Below, piece by piece: positions 9,044-56,704 of a stretch of DNA of 64,000 nt. The stretch is taken from positions 124,001 through 188,000 of the forward strand of contig NZ_JAEPJQ010000001.1 of the NCBI RefSeq assembly GCF_016827605.1, given 5' to 3'. The translations under genes and the position numbers were made by a program. This DNA comes from Hyunsoonleella ulvae. Its GTDB lineage: Bacteria; Bacteroidota; Bacteroidia; Flavobacteriales; Flavobacteriaceae. Each line of letters opens with the position of its first letter. The stretch's first letter is position 1. Under the pieces are notes generated by a model that saw nothing but the letters and a program-made list of their open reading frames with translations, made no database searches and was not told where the DNA came from.

Positions 9044-9766
9044 TTAATTTACTCTAACGTCTTTAAAATATGCTTTTAGTATGGCGACTGCCGCATCAAT
9101 CTCTTCAGGTTTATTCTCTCTAGCATCTTTTAATGGGTAATCCCAACCTAAAGCCTCCCATTTATGCACACCTAATTTATGATAGGGCTGTAATTCTATC
9201 TTCTCAATGGTTTTGTAATCTTTAAAATACGTGCCCATTTGGTGTAACAGTTCTGGTGTATTGGTTATTTCTGGAATAAGCACATAGCGTAACCACATAG
9301 GCTTACCGGAAGCTTCTCTGTATTTTGCTAAATTAAATGTGGTTTCCTTATTTTTTTGCCCAGTAATGTACTCATAGCCTTCTTCGGTCATATGCTTAAT
9401 ATCCAGCATTACCAAATCGGCATAATCATCTAATAATTCCTCTGTAAAGTGATTGATAATTCTACCATTAGTATCAATATTGGTATGGATACCTTCTTCC
9501 TTTAAACGCTTAAACAGCGGAAGCAACTCTTTTGATTGTAACAATGGCTCGCCACCTGAAACGGTAACACCACCGCGTTTTCCAAAATAAGGCTTCTCTT
9601 TAATGGCCATTTGCACTAAATCTTCTATTGGATATTCCTTACCGCCATGGGTATCTATAGTATCTGGATTATGACAATACAAACACTTTAGTTTACAACC
9701 CTGTAGAAAGATTACCATTCTTACTCCTGGGCCATCATGTGTACCAAAGGATTCAATGGAATGCAC
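9044..9766 (-). CDS. pflA: pyruvate formate-lyase activating enzyme
   Basis: A 240-residue radical SAM protein that installs the glycyl radical on PflB using S-adenosylmethionine and a 4Fe-4S cluster. The cluster motif C-x3-C-x2-C is at Cys24, Cys28 and Cys31 (GCKLKCLYCHNPDT), preceded by the family signature HSIESFGTHDGPG. A Gly-rich VTVSGGEPLLQ follows for SAM binding. The start appears to be GTG at 9766: a stop lies further upstream in frame and no ATG intervenes, and homologues begin close to RVHSIES. Downstream of pflB by 116 bp with a long hairpin in between, and upstream of the transporter by 28 bp. Confidence 0.94.
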   Translation of the reverse strand: MHSIESFGTHDGPGVRMVIFLQGCKLKCLYCHNPDTIDTHGGKEYPIEDLVQMAIKEKPYFGKRGGVTVSGGEPLLQSKELLPLFKRLKEEGIHTNIDTNGRIINHFTEELLDDYADLVMLDIKHMTEEGYEYITGQKNKETTFNLAKYREASGKPMWLRYVLIPEITNTPELLHQMGTYFKDYKTIEKIELQPYHKLGVHKWEALGWDYPLKDARENKPEEIDAAVAILKAYFKDVRVN

Positions 9767-12152: not shown

Positions 12153-12196
12153 CAAAGGTAGCACCCCATTACATCTTAAATCATGACAATTGTCAG
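12153..12196 (-). promoter_or_regulatory. pflB promoter with FNR/CRP-type box
   Basis: On the minus strand TACCTTTG (12153-12160) is an exact TAnnTTTG -7 element. The palindrome TGAC-AATT-GTCA occupies 12184-12195, centre 12189.5, exactly 29.5 bp upstream of the first base of the -7 element. The same spacing is seen at four other promoters in this window. The start codon of pflB is 45 bp downstream of the -7 element. The rest of the 344-bp gap 12109-12452 contains no gene or other clear structure. Confidence 0.75.
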
Positions 12197-35186: not shown

Positions 35187-35864
35187 TTATTCCACACGTC
35201 GCAATCCATTGGAATCTTCGATTTTTATGTATTTACCTACCGTAGAAATTAATCCCTGTTTTTTGAACTGAGATAGTACCCTTATTGCCGATTCTGTAGC
35301 AGTACCTACTATATTGGCGTAATCTTCACGAGACAACATTAAGCTAATGGTACCGTCTGGGTTTGTTCCAAAGTTCTTTTCAACATAAATTAGGGTTTCT
35401 GCCAAACGTTGTCTTACTGGTTTTTGGGCCATATCCACAATAATATCATCGGCTTCTTTTAAATCGTGAGCCATATCTCTTAACATGCCTAAAGTGAATT
35501 TTGGGTTTTTCTGTAGATCTGAGATAATTTCACTTTTTGGAATAAAACACAGTTCCATATCATTTAAGGCTGTAGCTTGCAGGTTAGAACTTTCATCCGA
35601 AACTAAAGAGCGTTGACCTATAAGCTCTCCCTTGACCACCATTTTTACAATTTGGTCTTTACCGTTTTCACTTAGTTTCGTTAATTTACAAATCCCATCC
35701 TTAATACAGTACACACCATTTATGGCCTCACCCTCTTCAAAGATAACTTGACCTTTCTTAACAAATCTTGATGTTTTACAGCCTGAAATACGAACTAACT
35801 CCTCACGACTTAAAGACTTTAAAGCATTAAATTGCTTGATAATACATTGCTCACACTTTCCCAT
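35187..35864 (-). CDS. Crp/Fnr family regulator with N-terminal cysteines (FNR-like)
   Basis: A 225-residue transcription factor: cyclic-nucleotide-type sensor domain (FVKKGQVIFEEGEAINGVYCIKDG) and C-terminal HTH_Crp (LSREDYANIVGTATESAIRVLSQFKKQG). It begins MGKCEQCIIKQF, giving a CxxC pair, with further Cys in ISGCKTS and in GVYCIKDGICK. Enough cysteines are present for a 4Fe-4S cluster of the FNR kind, but the spacing differs from E. coli FNR, so oxygen sensing is an inference. The start is ATG 35864; a TTG three codons earlier is less likely. It follows the universal stress gene by 32 bp and would share its promoter, which carries an FNR-type box, implying autoregulation. Confidence 0.88.
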   Translation of the reverse strand: MGKCEQCIIKQFNALKSLSREELVRISGCKTSRFVKKGQVIFEEGEAINGVYCIKDGICKLTKLSENGKDQIVKMVVKGELIGQRSLVSDESSNLQATALNDMELCFIPKSEIISDLQKNPKFTLGMLRDMAHDLKEADDIIVDMAQKPVRQRLAETLIYVEKNFGTNPDGTISLMLSREDYANIVGTATESAIRVLSQFKKQGLISTVGKYIKIEDSNGLRRVE

Positions 35865-35896
35865 AATTATCAATTAAATTATTATTTAAACATAAC

Positions 35897-36703
35897 TTAA
35901 TGTAGCACCAAAAAAGGTATTTCTGTATAATACTTAATCTCTGGATTTTTTGGTTGAAATAATATTTTTTCAAAATAATTTAAATTTTTAGCCAACATAG
36001 TAATTAAGTTTATCTTTCGGTCTTCTACAAATTCCTGTACTTGGCTCTCCACTTGCGTATTGGTTAAAAAATGAAAACTATGTTTAGTATCGCCTAAATA
36101 ATCATCTAACAATTCCTTATTCCTTTGTTGCTCCTCATTTAAAACTGCTTGGGCGTTATTAATATGCAATACTCTAGCCGATGCTTTATGAGTTTCTATA
36201 ATAGTAGTGATTGCCTCTAATGTTTTTGTTGAATAAATGGATAAGAAATCCGTGGGAAATGCAATCTCATTTAGTTTGGAGTATTTTGCATTTTCTGGCA
36301 CTACTACTGTAGCACATTTTACCTTGGTAATAACATTGGATGCATTAGTACCTAGAGGTATTTGTGATATCCCAGAGGCACCTTTGGTTCCCATAACAAT
36401 ATAATCTATACTGTTTTTTTCAACCTGCTCCCTTACCGAACTTACCATGTAACCACTATCTATAATCCTGAAAAACTTATGCTTTTTGTTTTTTTGCAAA
36501 TGGCCTTCTATCTTGCGAAAAATTGCCTGCATATCGTTCTCACATGAATTATCATGATGCGTATTACGATGTTGTTTTACTGAATTAGAGCATACATGCA
36601 ATATGTAGAAACTACAGGGCGAATTTTTAAAAAAATTTACCGCGTACTCTACTGCATTCCAAGCATTTTCTGAGAAATCTGTTGGTATTAAAATGTTTTC
36701 CAT
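35897..36703 (-). CDS. universal stress protein, tandem UspA domains
   Basis: A 268-residue cytoplasmic protein made of two UspA-like halves. The first has the start ILIPTDFSENAWNAVEYA and the nucleotide-binding motif MGTKGASGISQIPLGTNAS; the second half (EIAFPTDFLSIYSTKTLEA) keeps the fold but lacks the glycine motif. I chose ATG 36703 because UspA domains begin at this Met and because a more distant ATG (36742) would lie upstream of the -7 element and overlap the regulatory region. First gene of a usp-fnr operon, with an FNR-type box in the promoter. Expected to be induced at low oxygen or in stationary phase. Confidence 0.88.
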   Translation of the reverse strand: MENILIPTDFSENAWNAVEYAVNFFKNSPCSFYILHVCSNSVKQHRNTHHDNSCENDMQAIFRKIEGHLQKNKKHKFFRIIDSGYMVSSVREQVEKNSIDYIVMGTKGASGISQIPLGTNASNVITKVKCATVVVPENAKYSKLNEIAFPTDFLSIYSTKTLEAITTIIETHKASARVLHINNAQAVLNEEQQRNKELLDDYLGDTKHSFHFLTNTQVESQVQEFVEDRKINLITMLAKNLNYFEKILFQPKNPEIKYYTEIPFLVLH

Positions 36704-36724: not shown

Positions 36725-36770
36725 CAAATGTATGGGTAACATAAATACTGAAATATGACCAAAATCATAT
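36725..36770 (-). promoter_or_regulatory. usp-fnr promoter with FNR/CRP-type box
   Basis: Minus strand: exact -7 element TACATTTG at 36725-36732. Palindrome ATATGAC-CAAA-ATCATAT at 36753-36770 (one mismatch between arms), centre 36761.5, again 29.5 bp from the -7 element. The start codon at 36703 is 22 bp downstream of the -7 element. Confidence 0.8.
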
Positions 36771-36791
36771 CTGTATTGATATATTGAAGTA

Positions 36792-37844
36792 TTACTCTAT
36801 TCTTTTAAGTTTATTAACATCTAAAACCTTAACATTTCTACCTTCAATTTCAATAATACCTAAGTCCTTAAAATGCGAAAGTGTGCGTATAAGGCTTTCT
36901 GTTGCAACACCAGCTACACTTGCCAAATCGTTTCTTGAAATTCTTATGGACTCTTCGGGTTTTCGTCCCAGTTTTTCAGCAAATTTTAAAATAGTAATAG
37001 CCGTTCTTTTTTTCACAGAACTGTAAGCCATTTGCAATAATTGGCTTTTTATACCTGCCAAATCCTCATTAAGCAATTGTATAAGCTCTAAAGTTACTTG
37101 ATGGTTGCTACTTAGAAGTGTTTTAAATTCATCTCTTGGAATACCCAACAACACCGTTTCTTTAATGGCAGCAGCTGTTTCTTTATAGGTAGTACTTTGA
37201 TTAAAAGACGCATAACCAAATAAATCATCTTCTTTATATAACGAAGTGGTAAGGTCTTTCCCTTGATCATCAAATTGGTGGCATTTTACCAAACCTTTCT
37301 CTATAAGATAAATATGGTTGGAATGCTGCCCTTCTTCATATATGGTTTGCCCCTGTTTGAATTTATAGGTTTCGCCGTTATCATCAAAAAAATTCTTAAG
37401 GTCATTTAAATTTCTAATATCTTGAACCTCATTTACAGCTTCAACAGTTTCTTGTACTCTAATATCTTGTAAAATAGAGGCTTTAGCAAGCCTACTTTCA
37501 ATAGCACTAATTAATTCCTCTTCCTCGAAAGGTTTTGTAATATAATCGTCTGCGCCCAGATCCATACCCTTACGCACATCTTTGCGTTCTGTTTTAGCTG
37601 AAAGGAAAATAAAGGGAATGTACTTTGTATCTTCATATTTAGACAATCCTTCCAAAACACCATAACCATCCAGTTCTGGCATCATAATATCGCAAATTAT
37701 AATATCTGGAACAAAAGCTTTTGCACGCTCTAAACCTGCTTTACCATTTGGGGCAGTAACTACATTGTAACTAGATAACTCTAATAATTCTGCAGTGTTT
37801 TCCCTAAGAATTGTATCGTCCTCAATTAAAAGTATATTTTTCAT
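36792..37844 (-). CDS. receiver-Crp/Fnr fusion transcription regulator
   Basis: A 350-residue response regulator with an unusual output. Residues 1-120 are a CheY-like receiver: acidic pair in IEDD, phospho-acceptor Asp52 in IIICDIMMP, switch Thr/Ser in LSAKT and Lys in ITKPFEEEE. After a linker, residues about 150-270 form a cNMP-type sensor domain (YKFKQGQTIYEEGQHSNHIYLIEKGLVKC), and 280-350 an HTH_Crp domain (RISRNDLASVAGVATESLIRTLSHFKD). It thus joins in one chain what FixJ and FixK do separately. Its start overlaps the end of the PAS kinase gene by 4 bp (ATGA), so the two make a two-component pair. The likely target box is TGAY-N4-RTCA, found in five promoters nearby. Confidence 0.9.
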   Translation of the reverse strand: MKNILLIEDDTILRENTAELLELSSYNVVTAPNGKAGLERAKAFVPDIIICDIMMPELDGYGVLEGLSKYEDTKYIPFIFLSAKTERKDVRKGMDLGADDYITKPFEEEELISAIESRLAKASILQDIRVQETVEAVNEVQDIRNLNDLKNFFDDNGETYKFKQGQTIYEEGQHSNHIYLIEKGLVKCHQFDDQGKDLTTSLYKEDDLFGYASFNQSTTYKETAAAIKETVLLGIPRDEFKTLLSSNHQVTLELIQLLNEDLAGIKSQLLQMAYSSVKKRTAITILKFAEKLGRKPEESIRISRNDLASVAGVATESLIRTLSHFKDLGIIEIEGRNVKVLDVNKLKRIE

Positions 37845-39085
37845 GTATTGGCTTTGTTGGGTATTTGTATGGTAAATGTACTTCCTTTATGTTCTTCACT
37901 CTCAAAACTAATAATACCGCCTAAATTTTCTAAATGGCTCTTAACAATATTTAACCCTATACCGGTACCTTGAGTTAAAAGTGCGTTTTCTGCCCTAAAA
38001 TATCGATTGAATATTTGTTTTTGATCTGCTACAGGAATCCCTATACCTTTATCTGAAACCTTAAAAAACGTATAAGTTTTATCCTGCTTTATATCAATAT
38101 CTATAGTAGCTTCCTCTGGAGAATATTTTATGGCATTATGTACCAAGTTACTTAACGCCAACTCTACTATTTTCTCATCTTGATACAGTGATAGTTCATC
38201 AATATTATTAGGGTAATTAATATTTTGCCCCTCTTTAAGCAACATGTTTGCGTTGTAGATTACCTCATCCACGACTTTAGTTAATCGAAAAGAACCAAAC
38301 TTATATGTTACTTTTCCTGTCTCTAATTTCTCAACGGATAGAAAATCGTTTAAAATGTTATTTAGATAGTGTACTTTATCAGAGATCGTTTTTAGGTGCT
38401 TATCCCTCCTACTTTGTTGTTCTGTTAATTTATACTTCCCTAATAACATGACCGAAGTTAAAATACCACTTAATGGTGTTTTAAATTCATGGGACACCAG
38501 AGATAAAAACTTTGTTTTTAACTCATTAAGTTCCTTTTCTTTTTTGAGCGCATTACTTATTTTATTTTGAGCCTCTATACGTTTCCTTATTTCTACATCA
38601 CGCTTTTCGTTGGCTTTTTTTAAATCTTTAACCGTATCTGTTAGCTCTTTTGTTCTAAGAGCCACTTTCTTTTCCAGCTCATTGTTAAGCGCTTTTAAGG
38701 CATCTTCTTGCTTTTTTCGTTCCGTAATATCTATTACCAAGGCCATCACATAGGTTTCCCCGTTAATATTTAACGGGTTTAGCCCTGCTTCAACAGGAAA
38801 GGTATGACCATTTTTATGAGCACCGTGCAAATCCCGTCCACGCCCCATTTGCCGGCGCTTCTTCTGTTCCATAAAACCATCAACATGTTGGCTGTGATGC
38901 TTATGATATGCTGGAGGTATTAAAATATCTAAATGTTGATGTAATAATTCATTCTTGGAGTATCCAAACATGTATTCTGCAGAACTATTTACAGCTACAA
39001 TCTGTTGTGTATCATTAACCACAATAACGCCTTCTGAAACGGACTCAAAAAGTACATCAAAAACGTCTTTATCTTTTTGGAACAT
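37841..39085 (-). CDS. PAS-domain sensor histidine kinase (FixL-like)
   Basis: A 414-residue cytoplasmic kinase with no membrane segment. Domains: PAS (residues 8-125, ending ALVIDITERKKQ), a long coiled coil (125-190), HisKA with His199 in LSLVSHEFKTP, HATPase_c with N box LSNLVHNAIKY, DKGIGIP and GTGIGLNIV. The PAS segment AYHKHHSQHVDGFMEQ followed by MGRGRDLHGAHKNGHTFPVE aligns without gap to rhizobial FixL so that His64 matches the haem His and Arg84 the ligand-sensing Arg. However these residues also occur in many PAS domains that bind no haem, so oxygen sensing is only suggested. Its partner gene overlaps by 4 bp; the cbb3 maturation gene ccoI starts divergently 120 bp away. Confidence 0.88.
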   Translation of the reverse strand: MFQKDKDVFDVLFESVSEGVIVVNDTQQIVAVNSSAEYMFGYSKNELLHQHLDILIPPAYHKHHSQHVDGFMEQKKRRQMGRGRDLHGAHKNGHTFPVEAGLNPLNINGETYVMALVIDITERKKQEDALKALNNELEKKVALRTKELTDTVKDLKKANEKRDVEIRKRIEAQNKISNALKKEKELNELKTKFLSLVSHEFKTPLSGILTSVMLLGKYKLTEQQSRRDKHLKTISDKVHYLNNILNDFLSVEKLETGKVTYKFGSFRLTKVVDEVIYNANMLLKEGQNINYPNNIDELSLYQDEKIVELALSNLVHNAIKYSPEEATIDIDIKQDKTYTFFKVSDKGIGIPVADQKQIFNRYFRAENALLTQGTGIGLNIVKSHLENLGGIISFESEEHKGSTFTIQIPNKANT

Positions 39086-39134
39086 CTATTTTAAAAATAA
39101 ATTTTTCTAACCACATGCTGTAAAAATATATAAA

Positions 39135-39180
39135 TCATGATAGATATCATATTTTAAAATACATCAAATTAAAATATTTG
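39135..39180 (+). promoter_or_regulatory. ccoI promoter with FNR/CRP-type box
   Basis: Palindrome TGAT-AGAT-ATCA at 39138-39149 (with extended arms 39135-39152), centre 39143.5. A -7-like AATATTTG at 39173-39180 differs from TAnnTTTG only in the first base and lies exactly 29.5 bp downstream of the palindrome centre. The ATG of ccoI is 26 bp further on. On the minus strand the same spacing gives no -7 element, so the box serves ccoI rather than the divergent kinase. Confidence 0.7.
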
Positions 39181-39205
39181 CAAAAGGTAAAAATGAGCAA
39201 ATATT

Positions 39206-41692
39206 ATGGAAGCAAAAACATGTTTCCACTGTGGTTTAGATGCTACAACTTCAGGGATTATTTATGATAACAAATCGTTTTGCTGTAACGGGTGTAAAAC
39301 GGTTTACGAAATTTTTTCTGCAAACGACTTAACGTGTTACTACGATTTAGAGAATGCGCCAGGAGCTACTCCAAAGGAAATAGAGGGCAAATATAACTTC
39401 TTGGATAATGATAAAATCGTTGAAAGTTTGTTGGAGTTTAACGATGAAAACACACAAATAGTTACGCTTTATATCCCTCACATTCACTGTAGCTCCTGTA
39501 TTTGGATTTTAGAGAATTTAAATAAGTTACACCCATCGGTTAATTCGTCCATTGTAAACTTTGGAAAGAAAACCGTTCGTGTTAACTATAATACAAAAGA
39601 GATTTCTCTCAAGGCTCTTGTAAAGCTTTTAAGCAGTATTGGTTACGAACCCTTTATTAGCTTGGATGATTACAGTGTTGGACAAAAAAACGTAGACCGA
39701 TCTTTAATTTATAAACTGGGAATTGCTGGATTTGCTTTTGGCAACATTATGTTTTTGTCTTTTCCAGAGTATTTTCAGGTAAGTGGCTTTTGGATTGAAC
39801 AATACGCCCCTGTTTTCAGATGGCTCATGTTTACATTTTCGCTTCCCGTAGTGTTTTATTGTTCCAAAGATTATTTTATTTCCGCATATAAAGGCCTAAC
39901 ATCTAAATTATTAAATATAGATGTTCCCATTGCTTTGGGTATTACCGTACTATTTTTAAGAAGCACTACCGAAATAGTTTTTGATATTGGCACTGGTTTT
40001 TTTGATAGCCTATCGGGACTGGTATTCTTTCTGCTTTTAGGAAAGTTTTTCCAGAAAAAAACCTATAACTTCTTGTCGTTTGAACGGGATTACAAATCGT
40101 ACTTTCCCATCGGGATTACTAAAATAAACAATAAAGGTAAAGAGGAAGCCATACAGGTGTACGATATTAAGAAAGGAGATAGACTTTTGATTAGAAACCA
40201 AGAACTGATTCCTGTAGACTGCATTTTGATAAATGGTAATGCCAGAATCGACTATAGTTTTGTTACTGGAGAATCAGATGCAGTTTCTAAACAATCTGGA
40301 GCTAAACTTTTTGCCGGTGGTAAACAAACCGAGGGCAGTATTGAAGTGGATGTTTTAAAAACTGTTGAACAAAGTTATTTAACCCAATTGTGGAGTAATG
40401 ATGTGTTTAACAAAAATAAGGAAGATGGATTTACAACCCTAACCAATAGTATTAGTAAACGGTTCACAGTTGCAGTGCTGAGTATCGCTATAATAGCAAC
40501 AGGTTACTGGTTAATAGTAGATAGTTCTAAAGCACTAAATGTATTTACTGCGGTGTTGATTATTGCTTGCCCTTGCGCTATCGCCTTAGCTGCTCCATTT
40601 ACCTTTGGAAACCTATTACGGATTTTTGGCAAACTAAAATTCTACGCTAAAAATGCTTCAGTGATTGAACAATTAGCAGCGATTGATACCATCATCTTTG
40701 ATAAAACAGGAACTATTACCGCCAATAAAGAAACTGCTATTACTTATGAAGGTACCGAACTTTCTAAAGCCGAAGAAATCCTTTTAAAAAGTTCGTTACG
40801 CAATTCTAACCATCCTTTAAGCAGATCGCTATACACGCTTTTAGAAGACAACAATATTTTGACTTTAGATGATTACCAAGAGCATATAGGAAAAGGCATT
40901 GCGGCCAAACATAACGACCATTCCATTAAAATAGGATCTGCACCTTTTGTAGGTTACACTTCAGAAAGTACTACGCTAAACACGGCTGTTCATGTAAGTA
41001 CTAATAACACATACAAAGGCAAATTTACCTTTTATAATAAGTATAGGAAAGGACTATCTAAATTATTTAATAGACTTAAAAAAGACTATGATTTGGTTAT
41101 TTTATCTGGTGACAATGCTGGGGAACGAGAGAACCTAACCAAACTATTACCTGCAAAAACAAAACTATTCTTTAATCAGAAACCTGAGGACAAATTAGAA
41201 TATATAAAGCATCATCAAACTTCTGGTGCAAAAGTATTGATGGTTGGAGACGGATTAAACGATGCTGGTGCATTGGCACAAAGTGATGTTGGTATTGCCA
41301 TTTCTGAGAATGTAAATGTATTTTCGCCCGCCTGCGATGCCATATTGGATGCTACAAAGTTTAATCAATTGTACAGCTTTATCAAGGCTTCCAAACAAGC
41401 AATAACCATTATTAAATGGAGTTTTGTACTATCGTTTATCTATAATGCCATAGGGCTTTATTTTGCAGTAACAGGACAACTGGCTCCTGTAGTAGCTGCT
41501 ATTTTAATGCCTTTAAGTTCTATTAGTATTGTAGCATTTACGACGGTTTGCACAAATCTAATAGCTCCAAAAGCCCCTCCTTACCTCCCCAGAGGGGAGG
41601 TACACTCAACACCTAAAAATAAGATTAGCAAAAAATCTAAAATTAATGTTGTTGAAAGCAAAGTCAGTAACCTTAGAGTTAAGCATGAGTAA
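39206..41692 (+). CDS. ccoI: copper-type P1B ATPase CcoI for cbb3 oxidase
   Basis: An 828-residue heavy-metal P-type ATPase that pumps copper out of the cytoplasm for the active site of cbb3 oxidase. The N-terminus has an extra Cys-rich metal finger (Cys6, Cys9, Cys26, Cys27, Cys30), then an HMA domain with CSSC (Cys95, Cys98), eight membrane helices with the CPC motif at 455-457, phosphorylation site DKTG at Asp499 and hinge GDGLNDAGAL. This is the CcoI/FixI layout of Bacteroidetes. Odd: the tail after the last helix, from residue 787 (APKAPPYLPRGEVHS), is encoded by an interspersed palindromic repeat and ends in a Lys-rich, low-complexity stretch of about 30 residues. Confidence 0.95.
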   Translation: MEAKTCFHCGLDATTSGIIYDNKSFCCNGCKTVYEIFSANDLTCYYDLENAPGATPKEIEGKYNFLDNDKIVESLLEFNDENTQIVTLYIPHIHCSSCIWILENLNKLHPSVNSSIVNFGKKTVRVNYNTKEISLKALVKLLSSIGYEPFISLDDYSVGQKNVDRSLIYKLGIAGFAFGNIMFLSFPEYFQVSGFWIEQYAPVFRWLMFTFSLPVVFYCSKDYFISAYKGLTSKLLNIDVPIALGITVLFLRSTTEIVFDIGTGFFDSLSGLVFFLLLGKFFQKKTYNFLSFERDYKSYFPIGITKINNKGKEEAIQVYDIKKGDRLLIRNQELIPVDCILINGNARIDYSFVTGESDAVSKQSGAKLFAGGKQTEGSIEVDVLKTVEQSYLTQLWSNDVFNKNKEDGFTTLTNSISKRFTVAVLSIAIIATGYWLIVDSSKALNVFTAVLIIACPCAIALAAPFTFGNLLRIFGKLKFYAKNASVIEQLAAIDTIIFDKTGTITANKETAITYEGTELSKAEEILLKSSLRNSNHPLSRSLYTLLEDNNILTLDDYQEHIGKGIAAKHNDHSIKIGSAPFVGYTSESTTLNTAVHVSTNNTYKGKFTFYNKYRKGLSKLFNRLKKDYDLVILSGDNAGERENLTKLLPAKTKLFFNQKPEDKLEYIKHHQTSGAKVLMVGDGLNDAGALAQSDVGIAISENVNVFSPACDAILDATKFNQLYSFIKASKQAITIIKWSFVLSFIYNAIGLYFAVTGQLAPVVAAILMPLSSISIVAFTTVCTNLIAPKAPPYLPRGEVHSTPKNKISKKSKINVVESKVSNLRVKHE

Positions 41693-41742
41693 ATACGAAA
41701 GTTTTTCCTCCCCTATGGGGAGGTCAGGTGGTGCCTCTTTTT
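41571..41742. repeat. paired inverted palindromic repeats, one copy inside the ccoI 3' end
   Basis: Copy 41571-41605 (CCTCCCC 41584-41590, loop AGA, GGGGAGG 41594-41600) is translated as part of CcoI. Copy 41703-41738 (CCTCCCC 41707-41713, loop TAT, GGGGAGG 41717-41723, tail tcaggtggtgcctc) in the opposite orientation follows the stop codon by 10 bp. Between them are about 97 bp that now code the new CcoI tail. Confidence 0.78.
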
Positions 41743-41750
41743 TTCATGAA

Positions 41751-41796
41751 ACATGACAAATATCATCTTTTAAGAATAAGTATGAAAGTACTTTTG
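41751..41796 (+). promoter_or_regulatory. ccoS-NO-Q-P promoter with FNR/CRP-type box
   Basis: Palindrome TGAC-AAAT-ATCA at 41754-41765, centre 41759.5, and an exact -7 element TACTTTTG at 41789-41796, 29.5 bp downstream of the centre. ATG of ccoS follows 20 bp later. It lies 13 bp after the right palindromic repeat copy. Confidence 0.82.
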
Positions 41797-41816: not shown

Positions 41817-42002
41817 ATGAGCGTTATATATATTTTACTTGCTGTGAGCATATTAGTTGCTGTGGCGTTTTTTATAGTATTTGTTATTGCTGTTAAAAAA
41901 GGACAGTTTGATGACAGCTATACCCCATCGGTACGCATGTTATTTGAAGACGAACTTGTAAAGAATAAAACCAATAAAACAATACTAACCAAAGAAGAAT
42001 AA
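41817..42002 (+). CDS. ccoS: cbb3 oxidase maturation protein CcoS
   Basis: A 61-residue single-pass membrane protein: hydrophobic helix at residues 3-26 (IYILLAVSILVAVAFFIVFV) then QFDDSYTPSVRMLFEDE, which is the CcoS signature QFDDxxxPxxRMLxDD. CcoS is needed to insert cofactors into cbb3 oxidase. It is the first gene after the FNR-box promoter and precedes the fused ccoNO gene by 9 bp. Confidence 0.9.
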   Translation: MSVIYILLAVSILVAVAFFIVFVIAVKKGQFDDSYTPSVRMLFEDELVKNKTNKTILTKEE

Positions 42003-42011
42003 TACATTATT

Positions 42012-44195
42012 ATGGAAGTTCAACAATTTCATTACGATAATAAAATCGTTACTAAATTTATCTACGCTACCATTGTTTTTGGGGTAGTAGGGATGGTGGT
42101 AGGTTTACTACTTGCTTTTATGTTTCTGTTCCCGAATTTAACTGATGGTATCTCCTGGTTAAGTTTTGGACGTTTACGCCCCTTACATACCAATGCCGTG
42201 ATTTTCGCCTTTGTTGGGAATGCCATGTTTGCTGGAGTTTACTACTCGTTACAACGCTTGCTAAAAACACGTATGGCGAGTGATATGTTGAGTAACATCA
42301 ACTTCTGGGGATGGCAACTTATTATTGTTGCTGCAGCCATTACACTGCCACTAGGCATTACCACCTCTAAAGAATATGCCGAACTGGAATGGCCCATTGA
42401 TATTGCCATTGCATTGGTTTGGGTAGTTTTTGGTGTGAATATGATTTGGACCATCTTAAAACGTCGTCAACGTCACTTGTATGTAGCCGTTTGGTTTTAT
42501 ATCGCCACGTTTGTTACAGTAGCTGTACTACATATTTTTAATAGTTTAGAATTACCCGTAAGCGGATTAAAAAGTTACTCCGTTTATGCTGGTGTCCAGG
42601 ATGCCCTAGTACAATGGTGGTATGGGCATAATGCTGTAGCGTTCTTCTTAACAACGCCGTTCTTGGGACTGATGTATTACTTTGTACCAAAAGCTGCTAA
42701 CAGACCGGTGTATTCTTACAGACTATCTATAGTACACTTCTGGTCGTTAATCTTTATATACATTTGGGCAGGACCACATCACTTATTATATACCGCTTTA
42801 CCAGATTGGGCACAAAATTTAGGTGTTACCTTTTCCGTGATGCTATTGATGCCATCTTGGGGCGGTATGATAAACGGATTGTTAACTTTACGTGGTGCAT
42901 GGGACAAAGTACGTACAGATCCTGTTTTAAAATTTATGGTGGTAGCCATTACGGGTTACGGTATGGCAACCTTTGAAGGCCCTACTCTATCTCTTAAAAC
43001 TGTAAATGCGATGGCCCACTTTACCGATTGGATTATAGCGCACGTACACGTTGGTGCTCTGGCATGGAATGGGTTTATGGCATTTGGTATGATTTATTAC
43101 CTCGTACCCCGATTATTTAAAACCAAGCTCTACTCTCTAGGAATGGCTAATCTACATTTCTGGTTAGGAACCTTGGGTATTATAATATATGCACTTCCTA
43201 TGTATATGGCTGGCTTCACTCAATGGGCTATGTGGAAACAATTTAACCCAGATGGTACTTTAGTATATGGCAACTTCTTGGAAACAGTCACGGAAATAGT
43301 GCCTCTTTATTGGATGCGTGCTATTGGGGGCACACTTTACATCGTCGGCATGCTGGTTTTAGTTGTTAATGTTATAGCTACTATAAGAAGTGGTAGTAAA
43401 GTACAGGATGAATTGGCAGAAGCTCCGGCTCTTGAGCGCGTTTCCAAAAGACGAATTGCTAGTGAAGGTTGGCATACATGGTTAGAAAGAAGACCTATTA
43501 AACTAACCATTTTTGCAACAATTGCCATATTAATTGGAGGTATTATACAAATTGTACCAACAATAATGGTAAAATCTAATATTCCGACTATAGCAAGTGT
43601 GAAACCTTATACACCTTTGGAATTAGAAGGTAGAGATATTTACATTCGTGAAGGTTGTGTAGGCTGTCATTCCCAAATGATTCGACCATTTAGAGATGAA
43701 GTTGAACGTTATGGTGAATACTCTAAGGCTGGTGAGTATGTATACGACCATCCATTCTTATGGGGTAGTAAACGCACAGGTCCAGACCTACACCGTATTG
43801 GCGGCAAGTATTCTGACAACTGGCACTTTAACCATATGTACGACCCACAAAGCACCTCATCAGGTTCTATTATGCCACGTTACCAATGGCTGATTAAAAA
43901 TGAATTGGACAAATCCCAAACCGAATCTAAAATGGAAACCATGGTATCGCTTGGTGTTCCTTATTCAGACGAGGACATCGCGAACGCACAACAAAGTATG
44001 TTAGAACAGGGCAAACTAATTGAAGAAAACTTATACAGTGATCCTGATTTTACCAGCACTTATGAAGCAGATAAAAAAGCTGCTGCAGCCAGTGGAGTAC
44101 CATTTGTAGAAATGAAAAACAGAGAGATTGTGGCCTTAATTGCTTATCTGCAACGTTTGGGTACAGATATTAAAGTAGAGACAGCTCAAAAATAA
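42012..44195 (+). CDS. ccoNO: cbb3-type cytochrome c oxidase fused subunits I and II (CcoN-CcoO)
   Basis: A 727-residue membrane protein. Residues 1 to about 480 are subunit I with twelve helices and the haem/copper histidines (RPLHTNAVIFAFVGNAMF near the start, WYGHNAVAFFLTTPFLG, AGPHHLLYTALPDWAQ, IAHVHVGALAWNGF). Residues about 500-727 are the mono-haem subunit II: a membrane anchor, then CVGCHSQ with haem c ligands Cys549, Cys552, His553, and the axial Met in SIMPRYQW. The N-O fusion is the usual form in Bacteroidetes. It reduces oxygen with high affinity and pumps protons; Glu and Lys of the proton channel were not traced. Confidence 0.96.
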   Translation: MEVQQFHYDNKIVTKFIYATIVFGVVGMVVGLLLAFMFLFPNLTDGISWLSFGRLRPLHTNAVIFAFVGNAMFAGVYYSLQRLLKTRMASDMLSNINFWGWQLIIVAAAITLPLGITTSKEYAELEWPIDIAIALVWVVFGVNMIWTILKRRQRHLYVAVWFYIATFVTVAVLHIFNSLELPVSGLKSYSVYAGVQDALVQWWYGHNAVAFFLTTPFLGLMYYFVPKAANRPVYSYRLSIVHFWSLIFIYIWAGPHHLLYTALPDWAQNLGVTFSVMLLMPSWGGMINGLLTLRGAWDKVRTDPVLKFMVVAITGYGMATFEGPTLSLKTVNAMAHFTDWIIAHVHVGALAWNGFMAFGMIYYLVPRLFKTKLYSLGMANLHFWLGTLGIIIYALPMYMAGFTQWAMWKQFNPDGTLVYGNFLETVTEIVPLYWMRAIGGTLYIVGMLVLVVNVIATIRSGSKVQDELAEAPALERVSKRRIASEGWHTWLERRPIKLTIFATIAILIGGIIQIVPTIMVKSNIPTIASVKPYTPLELEGRDIYIREGCVGCHSQMIRPFRDEVERYGEYSKAGEYVYDHPFLWGSKRTGPDLHRIGGKYSDNWHFNHMYDPQSTSSGSIMPRYQWLIKNELDKSQTESKMETMVSLGVPYSDEDIANAQQSMLEQGKLIEENLYSDPDFTSTYEADKKAAAASGVPFVEMKNREIVALIAYLQRLGTDIKVETAQK

Positions 44196-44213
44196 CCCAA
44201 TAAGCAAAATATC

Positions 44214-44399
44214 ATGTTAAAATTTGTAAAAAAACATATGGAGAGCATCACAGGTATAGAAATCTATCCTATTATTTCACTGCTCATCTTTTTTATCTTT
44301 TTCGTAGCACTTTTTTGGTGGGTTGTAACCGCTAAGAAAGATTATATAAAAACAGTTAGTAACATACCATTAGACAACCAAAATAACGACATATTATGA
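44214..44399 (+). CDS. ccoQ: small cbb3 subunit CcoQ-like
   Basis: A 61-residue single-pass membrane protein (helix about residues 20-42, IYPIISLLIFFIFFVALFWW) with a short charged tail. Position between ccoNO and ccoP, size and topology fit CcoQ, which stabilises the oxidase; there is little conserved sequence, so the call rests on context. Its stop overlaps the ATG of ccoP by 4 bp. Confidence 0.8.
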   Translation: MLKFVKKHMESITGIEIYPIISLLIFFIFFVALFWWVVTAKKDYIKTVSNIPLDNQNNDIL

Positions 44400-45334
44400 G
44401 ACAGTTAGTTCCATCTTGGATTCGCGTTCCTGTTGTATTCTTTATCATTTTTGGAGCAGTTGAATTCTTTGTAGATTCTGGCGAGAAACCAGCATTTATT
44501 GAATATCCAGTAGTACTATTATTTCTCTTATTAGTATTGTTGATTCTAATTGCCATTGAAGCCATTGTTGGCGCATTAGAAAATGTAATGCTTCATAAAT
44601 TAGACGAGGAAGCTAAAGCAGGTTTCTTAGCCGAAAAGGAAAAAGCGTACCAGTTTACTTGGCTAAAAACTACTTACAAAACCCTTCTGGGACAAAAACC
44701 CATTGAGGAAGAAGGCGAAATTATATTAGACCATAATTACGATGGCATTAAAGAACTTGATAATAATTTACCACCATGGTGGCTATATGGCTTCTACATC
44801 AGCATAGCATTTGCTGCGATTTATTTGGTAAGGTTTCATGTATTTGATGGCGATACGCAATTAGATGAATTGGAAACTGAATTAGCTGAAGCCAGAATTG
44901 AAATTGAAGCATACAAAAAAACGGCCAAAGACTTAGTAGATGTAAATACTGTAGTTATGCTTACAGAAGCAGATGATTTAAAAACAGGTAAGTCCATCTT
45001 TGAAACCAACTGTGTGGCCTGCCACATGGCAGATGGTGGCGGTGGCATTGGGCCAAACTTAACAGATAAACACTGGATTCTTGGTGGAGGTATTAAAAAC
45101 GTATTTAATACTATTTCAGAAGGTGGTCGTTCGGGTAAAGGTATGATTCCTTGGAAAGCACAATTAAAACCATCACAAATAGCTAAAGTAGCAAGTTATG
45201 TACTCACATTACAAGGTACAACTCCCGCAAATCCAAAAGCTGCCGAAGGCGATATTTGGGTAGATGAAAGTGAAGAAATAACCACTGAAGATAATCCTGA
45301 AACACCAACCACTGAAGCTGTTGGTACAGAATAA
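44396..45334 (+). CDS. ccoP: cbb3 oxidase subunit III CcoP with one haem c
   Basis: A 312-residue membrane-anchored cytochrome c. It has two hydrophobic segments near the N-terminus, the characteristic DNNLPPWWLYGFYISIAFA helix of CcoP, a coiled region and one cytochrome c domain with Cys206, Cys209 and His210 (CVACHMADGGGGIGPNLTD) and a Met in GMIPWK. Classical proteobacterial CcoP has two haem c domains; here the second CxxCH is absent, as in several Bacteroidetes. The C-terminus is acidic. It passes electrons from a soluble donor to the CcoO haem. Confidence 0.93.
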   Translation: MRQLVPSWIRVPVVFFIIFGAVEFFVDSGEKPAFIEYPVVLLFLLLVLLILIAIEAIVGALENVMLHKLDEEAKAGFLAEKEKAYQFTWLKTTYKTLLGQKPIEEEGEIILDHNYDGIKELDNNLPPWWLYGFYISIAFAAIYLVRFHVFDGDTQLDELETELAEARIEIEAYKKTAKDLVDVNTVVMLTEADDLKTGKSIFETNCVACHMADGGGGIGPNLTDKHWILGGGIKNVFNTISEGGRSGKGMIPWKAQLKPSQIAKVASYVLTLQGTTPANPKAAEGDIWVDESEEITTEDNPETPTTEAVGTE

Positions 45335-45376
45335 ACATACAACTTCAAAACTAAATTAAACTAAACTTTTGAAGAC

Positions 45377-45411
45377 GACCTACAAGGGTGTTTTAAACCT
45401 TGTAGGTCTTA
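45377..45411. terminator. hairpin between ccoP and ccoG
   Basis: Perfect 11-bp stem GACCTACAAGG (45377-45387) / CCTTGTAGGTC (45398-45408) with a 10-base loop GTGTTTTAAA. It is followed by only TT then an A-rich stretch, so it may be an attenuator or processing hairpin that lowers ccoG expression compared with ccoNOQP, rather than a full terminator. Confidence 0.55.
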
Positions 45412-45471
45412 AAAATAAAACTACCAACATACCTGTAAAGCTGTAAAAACCTTATAGGATAATGATTAAAA

Positions 45472-46896
45472 ATGGATACCCCAGAGAACGAAATATTTAG
45501 AGATTCTATAGCAACGGTTACTGAAGAAGGTAAACGTGCTTGGGTGTTTCCAAAAAAACCAAAGGGTAGATTTTACGAATATCGAAAATACGTAAGCTAC
45601 TTTCTACTGGTGTTTTTATTCCTATCTCCATTTATAAAAATAAACGGAAATCAATTTTTACTATTCAATGTATTAGAACGCCGTTTTAATATTTTCGGAT
45701 TCCCATTTTGGCCCCAAGATTTTCATTTGTTTGTAATTTCCATGATAATTGGAGTGGTATTCATCACTCTCTTCACAGTGGCTTTTGGCCGGATTTTCTG
45801 TGGATGGATTTGCCCACAAACTATCTTTATGGAAATGGTGTTTAGACGCATTGAATATTGGATTGAAGGTGATAGAAACAAACAAAGAAAACTGGCAAGA
45901 CAAAAGTGGAACGCTGAAAAAATAAGAAAGAAAGGACTGAAATTTTTCATTTTCGCTGTGATTTCCTTTTTAATTGCCAATGTGTTTTTAGCTTATTTAA
46001 TTGGGGGAGACGAATTGATAAGATATATTTCTGAAGGGCCTTTTAATCACATAAGCACACTTATTGCGTTACTAATCTTTACAGCAGTATTCTACTTTGT
46101 TTTTGCTTGGTTTAGAGAACAAGTGTGTATTATCGCATGCCCTTATGGACGGTTACAGGGTGTATTATTAGATACAAAATCTATCGTAGTGGCATATGAC
46201 CATAAACGTGGGGAAGGTGCTAACGGGAGAAAAAAATTCCGTAAAAATGAGGATAGAAATACTTTAGGTCATGGAGATTGTATTGATTGTATGCAGTGTG
46301 TACACGTATGCCCTACAGGAATAGACATTAGAAATGGCACCCAATTAGAGTGTGTAAACTGTACTGCTTGTATTGATGAATGCGACCATATCATGGAAAG
46401 TATATACTTACCAAAAGGTTTGATTAGATACGCAAGCGAAGAAAATATTGAGAAAAAAACACCTTTTAAACTTAGTGCAAGAATGAAAGGATATACAGCA
46501 GTATTATCAATTCTTGTGGGTGTTTTAGTGGGTATGCTGTTTTTAAGAAATGATGTAGAAGCTAATGTTTTGCGATTACCGGGACAGCTTTATGAACGTA
46601 AAGATGACGGTATTATCAGCAACGTTTACACATACAAATTAGTGAATAAAACCACTGAAGATATTGAAGGTGTAAACTTTAAACTAATGTCCCACGAAGG
46701 TGCATTAAAATTGGTATCTACGAGCAAGGATTTTGTTGTGCCTAGTCAAGGTATGGCAGAAGGCACCTTATTTATAGAAATAAACAATACAGCATTAAGT
46801 GGCGATAGAAATAAAATAAAAATTGGTGTTTATAAGGATAATGAACTCATAGAAACCACTACGGCAAACTTTTTGGGTCCGAGGAGTTACAGGTAA
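45472..46896 (+). CDS. ccoG: cbb3 oxidase accessory ferredoxin-type protein CcoG
   Basis: A 474-residue membrane protein with about five helices, two 4Fe-4S clusters (CIDCMQCVHVCPTG and CVNCTACIDECDH) and the N-terminal cysteine motif CGWICPQTIF. A C-terminal Ig-like domain (residues about 350-474) completes the FixG/RdxA layout. It helps copper handling for cbb3 oxidase assembly, by reducing Cu(II). It follows ccoP by 137 bp with a hairpin in between and precedes ccoH by 207 bp. Confidence 0.94.
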   Translation: MDTPENEIFRDSIATVTEEGKRAWVFPKKPKGRFYEYRKYVSYFLLVFLFLSPFIKINGNQFLLFNVLERRFNIFGFPFWPQDFHLFVISMIIGVVFITLFTVAFGRIFCGWICPQTIFMEMVFRRIEYWIEGDRNKQRKLARQKWNAEKIRKKGLKFFIFAVISFLIANVFLAYLIGGDELIRYISEGPFNHISTLIALLIFTAVFYFVFAWFREQVCIIACPYGRLQGVLLDTKSIVVAYDHKRGEGANGRKKFRKNEDRNTLGHGDCIDCMQCVHVCPTGIDIRNGTQLECVNCTACIDECDHIMESIYLPKGLIRYASEENIEKKTPFKLSARMKGYTAVLSILVGVLVGMLFLRNDVEANVLRLPGQLYERKDDGIISNVYTYKLVNKTTEDIEGVNFKLMSHEGALKLVSTSKDFVVPSQGMAEGTLFIEINNTALSGDRNKIKIGVYKDNELIETTTANFLGPRSYR

Positions 46897-55276: not shown

Positions 55277-56641
55277 TTAAACCGTCATTGAGAACAACTG
55301 TGTTTCTGGCTGTTTTCGTTTTAACAACACATCAAAAGCCATACACACATTACGTACAAAAGGTTTTCCTTTTTCTGTGACTTCAATACCATCAGCATAA
55401 ATACGTACCAATCCGTCAGTTTCCATTTCTTTTAACTGAATTAAAACATCTGGTATTTCCTCAAAATAAAGGTTAGTATTGCTCCAAGACGTTTTAAAGC
55501 GACACATTAAGTTTAATATATGCTGTCTTATAATTAAATCTTCAATATTTAGTATATGTCCCCTAAACACTGGTAATGTATTGGTTTTTAATATCTCGTA
55601 ATAGGATTTAATATCTTTTACATTTTGCGCAAAACCATACCAAGCATCACTGATGGAGGATACTCCTAACCCAATCATGGCTTGTGTTTTAGAAGCGGTA
55701 TAGCCCATAAAATTCCTGTGTAATGTTCCATGTTCCATAGATTGGTACAAAGCATCTGTTTTAAGGGCAAAATGGTCCATCCCAATTTCTTCATAACCTA
55801 CTTCTGCCAATAGCTGTTTACCTATTTCATACTGTGCTCTCTTAAGACTTGCACTAGGTAAATCGCTATCTTGAAATCCTCGCTGTCCGTTACCTTTTAT
55901 CCAAGGCACATGTGCATAACTATAAAATGCCAAACGATCTGGAAGCAACAGTTTTGTTTTTAAAATGGTATCCTTAATATGCTCTAGTGTTTGGAAGGGA
56001 AGTCCAAAAATAATATCATGCCCTACTGATGTATAACCCACCTCCCTAGCCATATCAGTGGCTTTTTTTACATGTTCAAATGGCTGGATACGATGAATAG
56101 CCTTTTGTACTGTTTCATTGTAGTCTTGAACGCCAAAGCTTACACGCCTAAAACCTACATCATATAAAGCCTGTAAATGTGCTCTGGTTGTATTGTTAGG
56201 ATGCCCTTCAAAACTAAACGCATAATCTGGTGCTAATTGCGAAGTCTTTAAAATTTCAGAAATTAAATATGTTAAATGTTCGGGACTAAAAAAAGTTGGT
56301 GTACCTCCTCCAAGATGTAATTCCCTTATAAGAGGTGTTTCATTAAATAACTCCAAATATAAACGCCATTCCTTTAATACGGCGTTTATATAGGGCAATT
56401 CTACTGCATGTTGTTTTGTAATACGCTTGTTACAGCCACAAAACGTGCACAAACTCTCGCAAAACGGCAAGTGAATGTATATACTTATACCCTCTTTGGT
56501 ATTACTTTCCTTTAACGAATACCTCAAGGAGGTTTTCCATTCTTCAACAGAAAATGTTGCACTATCCCAATAAGGTACAGTGGGGTAACTTGTATAACGG
56601 GGACCTGCTATGTTATACTTATTTACTAATGATGTTGACAT
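55277..56641 (-). CDS. hemN: oxygen-independent coproporphyrinogen III oxidase
   Basis: A 454-residue radical SAM enzyme for haem synthesis without oxygen. The 4Fe-4S motif is C-x3-C-x2-C at Cys61, Cys65 and Cys68 with the extra Cys70 typical of true HemN (IHLPFCESLCTFCGCNK), and the N-terminal pattern YNIAGPRYTSYPTVPYW is diagnostic of HemN rather than HemW. It supplies haem for the cbb3 oxidase at low oxygen. Its promoter has a perfect FNR-type palindrome. Confidence 0.95.
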   Translation of the reverse strand: MSTSLVNKYNIAGPRYTSYPTVPYWDSATFSVEEWKTSLRYSLKESNTKEGISIYIHLPFCESLCTFCGCNKRITKQHAVELPYINAVLKEWRLYLELFNETPLIRELHLGGGTPTFFSPEHLTYLISEILKTSQLAPDYAFSFEGHPNNTTRAHLQALYDVGFRRVSFGVQDYNETVQKAIHRIQPFEHVKKATDMAREVGYTSVGHDIIFGLPFQTLEHIKDTILKTKLLLPDRLAFYSYAHVPWIKGNGQRGFQDSDLPSASLKRAQYEIGKQLLAEVGYEEIGMDHFALKTDALYQSMEHGTLHRNFMGYTASKTQAMIGLGVSSISDAWYGFAQNVKDIKSYYEILKTNTLPVFRGHILNIEDLIIRQHILNLMCRFKTSWSNTNLYFEEIPDVLIQLKEMETDGLVRIYADGIEVTEKGKPFVRNVCMAFDVLLKRKQPETQLFSMTV

Positions 56642-56658
56642 ACCTGATAATTATATAC

Positions 56659-56704
56659 CAAAATTAGAAGATTGAAAAGTGAAAAAATATGACATAAGTC
56701 ATAT
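56659..56704 (-). promoter_or_regulatory. hemN promoter with FNR/CRP-type box
   Basis: Minus strand: exact -7 element TAATTTTG at 56659-56666. A perfect palindrome ATATGAC-ATAA-GTCATAT at 56687-56704, centre 56695.5, is 29.5 bp from the -7 element. Start codon 18 bp downstream of the -7 element. No matching -7 element lies at the same distance on the plus side (toward YceI). Confidence 0.85.

Follow-up and report, generated by a model that had tools for sequence, protein, structure and literature searches.

Introduction

Promoters of E. coli are composed of -35 and -10 elements, and the half-site of E. coli FNR is TTGAT; in rhizobia, the FixL-FixJ-FixK cascade controls fixNOQP. Within the Bacteroidota, the Crp of Bacteroides (BT4338, Cur/MalR) belongs to the Crp family and has pflBA as a predicted target, but it has another palindrome, wwwTATGTTnTAnAACATAwww, and a carbohydrate regulon, according to the accessible part of the published account (PMC3878776); the Bacteroides carbon-regulator motif was applied to flavobacteria in a 2021 study, as its accessible text describes (PMC8510549). 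The promoter type of this phylum is unusual: the start-site map of Flavobacterium psychrophilum places TAnnTTTG at -12 to -5, and in that organism low oxygen induces cbb3 and heme genes; crp and fnr go without mention in the paper's main text (PMC9723704). No described oxygen operator for flavobacteria turned up among the papers listed in searches of the open-access literature.

We examined a 64-kb stretch of Hyunsoonleella ulvae DNA (the window), which holds the genes of a cbb3 oxidase as well as pflB, pflA and hemN. Its promoters resemble the E. coli class II FNR/CRP promoters in their TGA...TCA half-sites at a predicted -41.5, and its regulators resemble the E. coli proteins in Crp/Fnr fold and in the Glu and Arg of the recognition helix, but the E. 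coli promoters have -35/-10 elements whereas those here have TAnnTTTG, as do the sigma-A promoters SM1-3 of F. psychrophilum in the accessible text (PMC9723704). As in the rhizobial cascade, a heme-PAS-like kinase and a Crp-type activator adjoin the cbb3 (fix/cco) genes; rhizobial FixJ has a LuxR-type output domain, whereas the protein termed RR-Crp here is without one and combines a receiver and a Crp-type DNA-binding part in a single protein. We propose, at a probability of roughly 80%, that a low-oxygen regulon uses the boxes as its operators, with class II activation of the Crp/Fnr type from -41.5 and with Fnr and RR-Crp as the likely readers.

Results

The features of the window are as follows.

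9044-9766, after pflB: pflA (family model)
9883..12108, minus strand: pflB, formate C-acetyltransferase (family model)
12153..12160, minus strand: pflB -7 element TACCTTTG
12184..12195, minus strand: box TGACAATTGTCA of the pflB promoter, predicted centre -41.5
35187..35864, minus strand: fnr, Crp/Fnr regulator
35897..36703, minus strand: usp, universal stress protein (start set at 36703, slightly 3' of the predicted +1)
36725..36732, minus strand: usp-fnr -7 element TACATTTG
36756..36767, minus strand: box TGATTTTGGTCA of the usp-fnr promoter
36792..37844, minus strand: RR-Crp, receiver domain fused to a Crp-type DNA-binding protein
37841..39085, minus strand: histidine kinase with a FixL/DosP-like PAS domain
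39138..39149, plus strand: box TGATAGATATCA of the ccoI promoter, between ccoI and the divergent kinase gene
39173..39180, plus strand: ccoI -7 element AATATTTG, without the -12 T
39206..41692, plus strand: ccoI, P-type ATPase adjoining the cbb3 oxidase operon (general P-type ATPase model)
41754..41765, plus strand: box TGACAAATATCA of the ccoS-NO-Q-P promoter
41789..41796, plus strand: ccoS -7 element TACTTTTG
41817..46896, plus strand: ccoS-to-ccoG cluster
41817-42002, plus strand: ccoS (family model)
42012-44195, plus strand: ccoN-ccoO, fused (family model)
44214-44399, plus strand: small ORF in the ccoQ position (named from position and the sequence-only reading)
44396-45334, plus strand: ccoP (named on the same two grounds)
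45472-46896, plus strand: ccoG (family model)
55277..56641, minus strand: hemN, oxygen-independent coproporphyrinogen III oxidase (family model)
56659..56666, minus strand: hemN -7 element TAATTTTG
56690..56701, minus strand: box TGACTTATGTCA of the hemN promoter

Family models for pflB, pflA, ccoS, the fused ccoN-ccoO, ccoG and hemN scored above their cut-offs. The ccoI product exceeded the cut-off of the general P-type ATPase model only, heavy-metal models scoring below theirs, so that ccoI owes its name to its place in the cluster.

The five TGAY-N4-RTCA boxes, each with the palindromic core TGA-N6-TCA, are present where the sequence-only reading had put them (centres 12189.5, 36761.5, 39143.5, 41759.5 and 56695.5); the distance claimed from box centre to first -7 base, 29.5 bp (a gap of 23 nt after the box), was recovered in 5/5, as was the exact TAnnTTTG at four of the five promoters with a single mismatch, at the first T, for ccoI. 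The same reading had also argued that so many boxes defied chance, and this did not hold: 5 boxes were observed against 3.65 expected per window, at least 5 appeared in 30 of 100 dinucleotide shuffles of the window, and box enrichment was dropped as evidence on its own. The signal is the fixed spacing, the box by itself being unenriched. With up to one mismatch allowed in the -7 element, gap 23 was found at all five boxes; elsewhere between gaps 10 and 40 there were matches only at 11 (1), 34 (1) and 38 (2). A simple estimate for the shared gap, allowing for 31 gaps and both strands, gave P of about 2e-7; zero exact gap-23 matches arose in 60 Markov-simulated windows.

That the boxes lie near -41.5 had likewise been suggested from the sequence, and the accessible F. 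psychrophilum map bears it out, with the first T of TAnnTTTG at -12 (PMC9723704). With 29.5 bp between that base and the box centre, all five window promoters have their operator at a predicted -41.5, where class II activators bind, the start being taken from this other species' map. Counted in the same way, the predicted 5' leaders to the ATG are 40 nt for pflB, 17 for usp, 21 for ccoI, 16 for ccoS and 13 for hemN.

The whole H. ulvae genome was scanned for box plus spacing, a test proposed beforehand, and gap 23 was enriched and further anaerobic genes were found. There were 10 exact gap-23 matches and 0 in the reversed control; the rest of the range tested, gaps 8 to 38, gave 6 exact matches over 30 gaps (mean 0.2 per gap), some of them at gaps 9, 17, 30 and 37. 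A new exact site stands upstream of pta-ackA. Looser sites, in which the gap is 24 or the -7 element has a single mismatch, precede nrfHA, an azurin-family gene and the moeA that adjoins napA. Behind four of the 10 exact matches stand genes whose function is unknown or has no obvious link to low oxygen. One more (C16:89985) falls within an MscS-like coding sequence; as a promoter site it was rejected and is regarded as chance. With up to one mismatch there were 28 matches against 14 in the control, and single weak sites are for this reason untrustworthy. The 18 one-mismatch matches comprise 7 mismatched in the box, which were left out of the site count for this genome and 4 of which lie inside genes, and 11 with an intact box and a mismatched -7 element; of these 11, 8 stand before a gene, ccoI being one, and 3 are intragenic.

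This gene content bears on whether the boxes might instead be sites of a carbon- or cAMP-responsive Crp of the Bacteroides Crp/Cur/MalR type, with no oxygen regulator involved. The accessible text of the 2021 study places Flavobacteriales Crp/Fnr homologs in the MalR carbon group (PMC8510549), and the predicted Bacteroides Crp regulon also takes in pflBA; the BT4338 motif, however, is without the TGA/TCA core in the accessible account, and by eye the TGAY...RTCA sites of the window fail to fit it (PMC3878776). Moreover, the sites precede genes for cbb3 oxidase, hemN, pfl, pta-ackA, nrf, moeA beside napA and an azurin-family protein, and we regard a carbon regulator as improbable. We continue with the boxes as low-oxygen operators.

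In one genome from each of 100 Flavobacteriaceae genera, gap 23 gave 733 matches versus 12 in the reversed control (same bases, same gap), the other gaps averaging 33 (by subtraction) and the control 21 per gap. At 80 named ccoN loci, 85 exact matches fell at gap 23, and among other gaps from 5 to 45 more than 2 matches occurred only at 9, 10, 22, 24, 34 and 45. One of the 4 matches at gap 34 arises where a gap-23 site is followed by a further -7 match; the other 3 precede fnr, with the box at -52.5. A box was found upstream in 72/79 ccoS/N loci and 50/62 ccoI loci, and gap 23 combined with no more than one -7 mismatch was seen in 55/79 and 38/62, respectively; among the latter sets, the -12 T is missing at 35 of 38 ccoI promoters versus 1 of 55 for ccoS/N. 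The 80 loci were divided by hand, mainly by identity rank, into 55 closer and 25 distant ones; two distant loci (L101, L115) are titled Flavobacteriaceae, and some closer loci are named only Flavobacteriales or Bacteroidetes. The upstream scan of fnr ran from the longest ORF start and overlooked at least 2 boxes (L048 and L076, whose fnr box is present). Three of five extra RR-Crp stretches (G027, G036, G078) were picked for known boxes near RR-Crp.

The spacing could in principle be a by-product of AT-rich promoter composition, or of shared ancestry of a few cco promoters: the box alone is unenriched in the window, and related genomes do have common ancestry. Yet reversal of the pattern nearly abolished the matches, the main peak stands at a single gap, and the matches within the H. 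ulvae genome lie at unrelated loci, so that we give this explanation next to no weight beside that of conserved operators.

The fnr product has the Crp/Fnr fold with a helix-turn-helix; its top solved fold was P. gingivalis 2gau, and its modelled fold appears to be common with that of E. coli and A. fischeri FNR (Foldseek TM-score about 0.8 to holo-FNR). Cysteines C7, C10, C56 and C109 are invariant (numbering of the 228-aa ORF starting at 35873). In an alignment of 70 rows, one of which is the window protein retrieved anew and some others of which may also be duplicates, counterparts of E. coli FNR C20, C23 and C122 are present in 70/70, the C29 column holds Cys in 0/70 (Asn, Ser or Thr instead), and the extra invariant C56 sits at the position of FNR Ala70. 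E. coli FNR uses the ligand set C20, C23, C29 and C122, whereas flavobacterial Fnr has three of these and a relocated fourth Cys; Fnr is probably an iron-sulfur oxygen sensor, judged from these residues. Its recognition helix, TATESxIR, places Glu and Arg as in FNR and CRP, with ExxIR against the ExxSR of FNR (E, I and R in 67/70 rows, 3 gapped).

RR-Crp consists of receiver, cNMP_binding and HTH_Crp_2 domains, and its recognition helix, mostly A(T/S)E(S/T)(L/V)IR, likewise has Glu and Arg placed as in FNR and CRP. The PAS domain of the kinase encoded directly upstream has FixL and DosP as best solved matches (best E 2e-13), and its His64 aligned with the FixL heme histidine; this column holds His in 16/18 rows, one being the window's own copy fetched again, and of the two exceptions one is a kinase that is unrelated and the other a row lacking the region.

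At least 2 gap-23 sites were present in 77/77 genomes with Fnr or RR-Crp and in 4/23 with neither. By class, this was so for all 22 genomes with both regulators (median 12 matches), all 35 with Fnr only (median 6) and all 20 with RR-Crp only (median 8); of those with neither, 11/23 have at least one match (median 0). Presence was called at 219 bits for Fnr and about 265 bits for RR-Crp, the next lower matches scoring 157 and 124, and these ortholog thresholds were chosen after the score gap was seen; for G001 and G025 the protein scored as RR-Crp has an identity of just 42% and 45% and is perhaps a paralog. The 23 genomes with neither regulator gave 23 matches versus 1 in the control, 9 of them in G048 (82% complete, 6% contaminated); the other 14 may represent sites read by further Crp-type proteins. 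As 21 of these 23 genomes are also without a full-length match to the window ccoN, and regulators, cbb3 presence and genome size vary together, the co-occurrence by itself is no proof of the binder.

Either regulator appears to suffice, in different genera, to judge from these distributions. The boxes could instead serve one regulator only, Fnr or RR-Crp, the other having a different target. It is common for Crp/Fnr paralogs of the same cell to recognize different boxes, and the two recognition helices differ at several positions, e.g., Fnr has A or C before the Ile where RR-Crp has mostly L, and begins with T where RR-Crp has mostly I; against this, gap-23 sites occur in every Fnr-only and every RR-Crp-only genome, and the same ccoN promoter site is kept in 17 of the 19 RR-Crp-only genomes with a full ccoN (misses, G040 and G089). 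The count of gap-23 boxes before ccoN, 18/21, is a lower bound, only 839 upstream bases being covered in locus L167 (G048); the ccoN match of L042 begins at the same contig position as that of L167, and there the box is present upstream. We consider a single reader unlikely, if less so than a carbon regulator, and favor Fnr and RR-Crp both.

Discussion

We infer that a Crp/Fnr-type dimer would occupy ATGAY-N4-RTCAT, with the centre of the palindrome at -41.5. Acting as a class II activator, it would recruit the Bacteroidota housekeeping RNA polymerase to the TAnnTTTG -7 element. One likely reader is the Fnr encoded by usp-fnr; the other is RR-Crp, which would be driven by the FixL-like heme-PAS kinase.

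A broader reading joins these points, and we hold it to be about as apt to be wrong as right. Across the Flavobacteriaceae, two chemically distinct oxygen sensors, the cysteine-relocated Fnr and the heme-PAS kinase with RR-Crp, would read one grammar (ATGAY-N4-RTCAT, 23 nt, TAnnTTTG) interchangeably, genera swapping sensors and keeping operators. The grammar would also set output: loss of the -12 T would tone down ccoI, and through a box at -27.5/-28.5, one shared palindrome, Fnr would both repress its own gene and activate ccoI. In other families of the class Bacteroidia boxes are often paired, 22 bp (about two helical turns) apart, and two boxes would be used there.

The same palindrome, at one fixed distance before many low-oxygen genes and apparently readable by two kinds of probable oxygen-sensing regulator, offers a testable rule for the response of flavobacteria to oxygen loss. 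Given a fixed operator-promoter distance, the low-oxygen regulon could be predicted from sequence in many genomes, and regulator swaps, which appear to have occurred, provide a setting in which to study networks that keep their targets while changing sensors.

The box differs from that of E. coli FNR in its outer base. Among 73 gap-23 sites of the closer cco loci, the base 5' of TGA is A in 55, C in 14, G in 3, and T, the outer base of the E. coli half-site, in 1. A T-rich stretch, a candidate for the -33 element of Bacteroidota promoters, runs from -33 to -30 in these sites (60, 66, 57 and 60 of 73).

Promoter layout in the window

The palindrome TGAY-N4-RTCA (the box) was confirmed at all five positions named in the sequence-only reading, oriented toward pflB, usp-fnr, ccoI, ccoS-NO-Q-P and hemN, and in all five promoters 23 nt lay between the end of the box and the start of the -7 element TAnnTTTG (gap 23, or 29.5 bp from the box centre). 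The predicted start of transcription lay 13 to 40 nt from the ATG; for usp this favours translation from the long ORF's second Met (36703), since the predicted transcript would begin downstream of the first Met (36742). The reading had argued that a box expected once per 16 kb would hardly occur five times by chance. The box count alone was unsurprising (5 observed in the window, 3.65 expected, with 5 reached in 30 of 100 shuffles), and therefore that argument cannot carry the claim. It is the common spacing, rather than the box count, that carries it: no exact box with TAnnTTTG was found in the window at any gap from 10 to 40 except 23, and the joint chance of the common spacing was ~2e-7 by a simple estimate. 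The faulty chance step makes no difference in the end; the promoter layout was read correctly, and the meaning given to it holds as far as sequence can tell. The layout would represent class II control by a Crp/Fnr protein acting on a promoter of the Bacteroidota type.

The start-site map of Flavobacterium psychrophilum places TAnnTTTG at -12 to -5 (PMC9723704). If -12 is assigned to the first T, the boxes reach from -47 to -36, with their centre at -41.5, as had been proposed (gap 24 would give -42.5). The same study reports that the cbb3 oxidase was strongly induced, and heme synthesis enzymes were induced, under oxygen limitation (PMC9723704). Among 73 gap-23 sites of the 55 closer loci of the cbb3 oxidase (cco) genes, the operator extended to ATGAY-N4-RTCAT (A before the box in 55 of 73, T after it in 68 of 73), and a T-rich stretch followed downstream at -33 to -30.

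Conservation of the spacing

The whole genome (4,059,856 bases in 23 contigs; the window is C1:124001-188000) was scanned for the exact box and TAnnTTTG. Gap 23 gave 10 matches and the reversed pattern none; gaps 8-38 together gave 16 (10 at gap 23, 2 at gap 24, and 1 each at gaps 9, 17, 30 and 37), against 9 in all for the reversed control. The enrichment that the sequence-only reading had proposed as a check was therefore found, and pta-ackA, headed by one of the 6 gap-23 sites outside the window, was added to the set, but four exact sites stand at genes not known to belong to the low-oxygen set. A second outside site precedes a thioredoxin-family protein gene, another falls within an MscS-like gene, and three precede genes for proteins without a Pfam match, which are possibly novel low-oxygen genes (coordinates within fetched stretches of this genome):

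L011 4639-8097, 1152-aa protein
L013 4940-5482 (-), 180-aa protein
L016 3780-5360 (-), 526-aa protein

One gap-24 site lies upstream of a plastocyanin/azurin-family protein gene, and the other upstream of a MoeA-like gene (product under the MoeA equivalog cut-offs, over the domain cut-off) divergent from a NapA-type nitrate reductase gene (score over the threshold of one NapA model out of two). When one mismatch was permitted, 28 matches were obtained against 14 for the control. Eight sites with the box unaltered and a single mismatch in the -7 element stood before genes. One precedes ccoI and one a 427-aa gene, downstream of which come nrfH and nrfA (named by family models); the genes behind the other six include some resembling, by eye, a ribosome hibernation factor, a CBS-domain protein and an SLC13-type transporter. 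One promoter layout is thus common to pyruvate formate-lyase, its acetate branch, nitrate/nitrite respiration, oxygen-free heme synthesis and the high-affinity oxidase.

Across 100 Flavobacteriaceae genomes from 100 genera there were 733 matches at gap 23, at least one in 88 genomes, and 12 for the reversed control; gaps 8-38 together gave 1729, so that the other gaps averaged 33 (control, 21 per gap). In a draw of 247 genomes from the phylum, matches were present in all 27 members of the family (250 matches; control, 5), in 3 of 3 genomes from another family of the order, in 27 of 31 from other families of the class (95 matches; control, 7), and in 47 of 186 from other classes (by subtraction; control 9 of 186, counted by eye). 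Within 80 named ccoN loci (1.44 Mb in total), the top-ranking among at least 590 found, exact matches numbered 85 at gap 23, 6 at gap 22 and 5 at gap 24, with other peaks at gaps 9, 10, 34 and 45 (9, 7, 4 and 17) and at most 2 at the remaining gaps from 5 to 45. The box stood upstream of ccoS/ccoN in 72 of 79 loci and upstream of ccoI in 50 of 62; when only boxes at gap 23 whose -7 element had no more than one mismatch were counted, the figures were 55 and 38.

Twelve of the 17 exact gap-45 matches occurred in 25 distant loci, where a second box, often weaker, followed at an offset of exactly 22 bp and so at gap 23. A 12-mer with no more than two mismatches was found at offset 22 for 28 of 31 gap-45 sites of distant loci (-7 element with at most one mismatch) and for 32 of 48 gap-45 sites in 21 same-class genomes; the other offsets tried gave 0-3. 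Gap 45 occurred 48 times in the same-class genomes (control, 4) and 16 times in the family (control, 6). The second boxes and the gap-45 excess in same-class genomes point to a tandem form, with boxes at -63.5 and -41.5, that other families of the class often use. Among the distant cco loci, L088 (8749), L097 (8728) and L112 (8713), for example, have tandem boxes exactly 22 bp apart before cco and neighbouring genes; in the Pontibacter locus L099, two near-identical tandem-box promoters (8802 and 12668) lie about 3.9 kb apart.

Candidate regulators

The product of fnr (window 35187-35864, minus strand) has a Crp/Fnr fold (AlphaFold pLDDT 87.8; best solved match 2gau, holo-FNR from rank 8). In 70 aligned rows, in which the window protein is present at least twice and further repeats are possible, C7, C10, C56 and C109 were invariant, and a 30-sequence alignment concurred; three of them align with FNR C20, C23 and C122. 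The window-type protein differs from FNR in lacking ligand C29 (Asn in 56 rows, Ser in 12, Thr in 2) and in having a new Cys, C56, opposite FNR Ala70; the simplest reading is that C56 would be the relocated fourth iron-sulfur ligand.

The second regulator, RR-Crp, joins a receiver domain and a Crp-type part in one protein, and its gene comes after a kinase gene. The PAS domain of the kinase has FixL and DosP as best matches and keeps the heme histidine; the FixL-like heme-PAS kinase gene overlaps the fusion gene (window 36792-39085, minus strand). The pair resembles a FixL/FixJ/FixK-like pathway condensed into two proteins. CRP and FNR contact the TGA core through a Glu and an Arg, and both Fnr and RR-Crp have Glu and Arg at these positions.

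In the 100 genomes, both regulators were present in 22 (median 12 sites), Fnr only in 35 (6), RR-Crp only in 20 (8) and neither in 23 (0). All 77 genomes with a regulator had at least two sites; of the 23 with neither, 11 had one site or more and 4 had two or more. One of these (G048; incomplete, contaminated assembly) had 9 sites, and the others together had 14 matches against 1 for the control, unaccounted for by Fnr or RR-Crp. Full-length ccoN was found in 19 of the 20 RR-Crp-only genomes, 17 of which kept the gap-23 box there; a full-length match to the window ccoN occurred in only 2 of the 23 genomes with neither regulator (G048 and G020). The two candidate sensors seem to replace each other. 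In five fetched RR-Crp regions from the 20 RR-Crp-only genomes (three picked because boxes had already been seen there), a gap-23 box lay between RR-Crp and the subsequent usp gene, as in the window. These stretches (L162-L166, no Fnr ortholog) carry the kinase-RR-Crp pair, then the box, then at least one usp, and no cco genes.

Among the open-access literature matches listed, no flavobacterial oxygen operator was found, and the novelty claim is limited to that open-access scope. One study groups the Crp/Fnr homologs of Flavobacteriales close to MalR, a carbon regulator (PMC8510549). Beyond the sequence-only reading, the analysis contributes the family-wide test, the two candidate sensors, the tandem arrangement outside the family but within the class, and a systematic change at -12 of ccoI.

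Promoters of ccoI and fnr

Gap 23 together with a -7 element off by no more than one base was found at 38 ccoI promoters (L040-L119; window element at 39173). At -12 these had G in 14, C in 12, A in 9 and T in 3, and all 35 of their -7 mismatches fell there. The same position lacked T in 1 of 55 promoters of ccoS/N and in 16 of the 78 remaining sites of this kind in the 80 loci (ccoI vs ccoS/N, Fisher P = 6e-21, with loci treated as independent despite kinship). Because three different substitutes occur, the data argue for avoidance of T at this position rather than inheritance of one base; ccoI may have a weakened, activator-dependent promoter for its ATPase.

Fifteen of the 16 matches at gaps 9 and 10 in the cco loci lay before fnr genes divergent from ccoI. 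A box was found at 30 of 36 fnr genes examined, and the best -7 match fell at gap 9-11 for 15 genes, at gap 23 for 4 and at gap 34 for 3. A box centred at -27.5 or -28.5 would overlap the fnr promoter, which suggests that fnr may repress itself via the same palindrome that serves ccoI. A single palindrome between divergent fnr and ccoI, at -41.5 for ccoI and -27.5/-28.5 for fnr, is seen at L045 6280, L046 6278, L051 3006, L059 6243 and others. The window fnr differs in that it sits behind usp, whose promoter has its own -41.5 box. Before three fnr genes (L041 907, L085 6231 and L090 6291, the last on the minus strand), the box lies at gap 34, which puts its centre at -52.5, a helical turn farther upstream.
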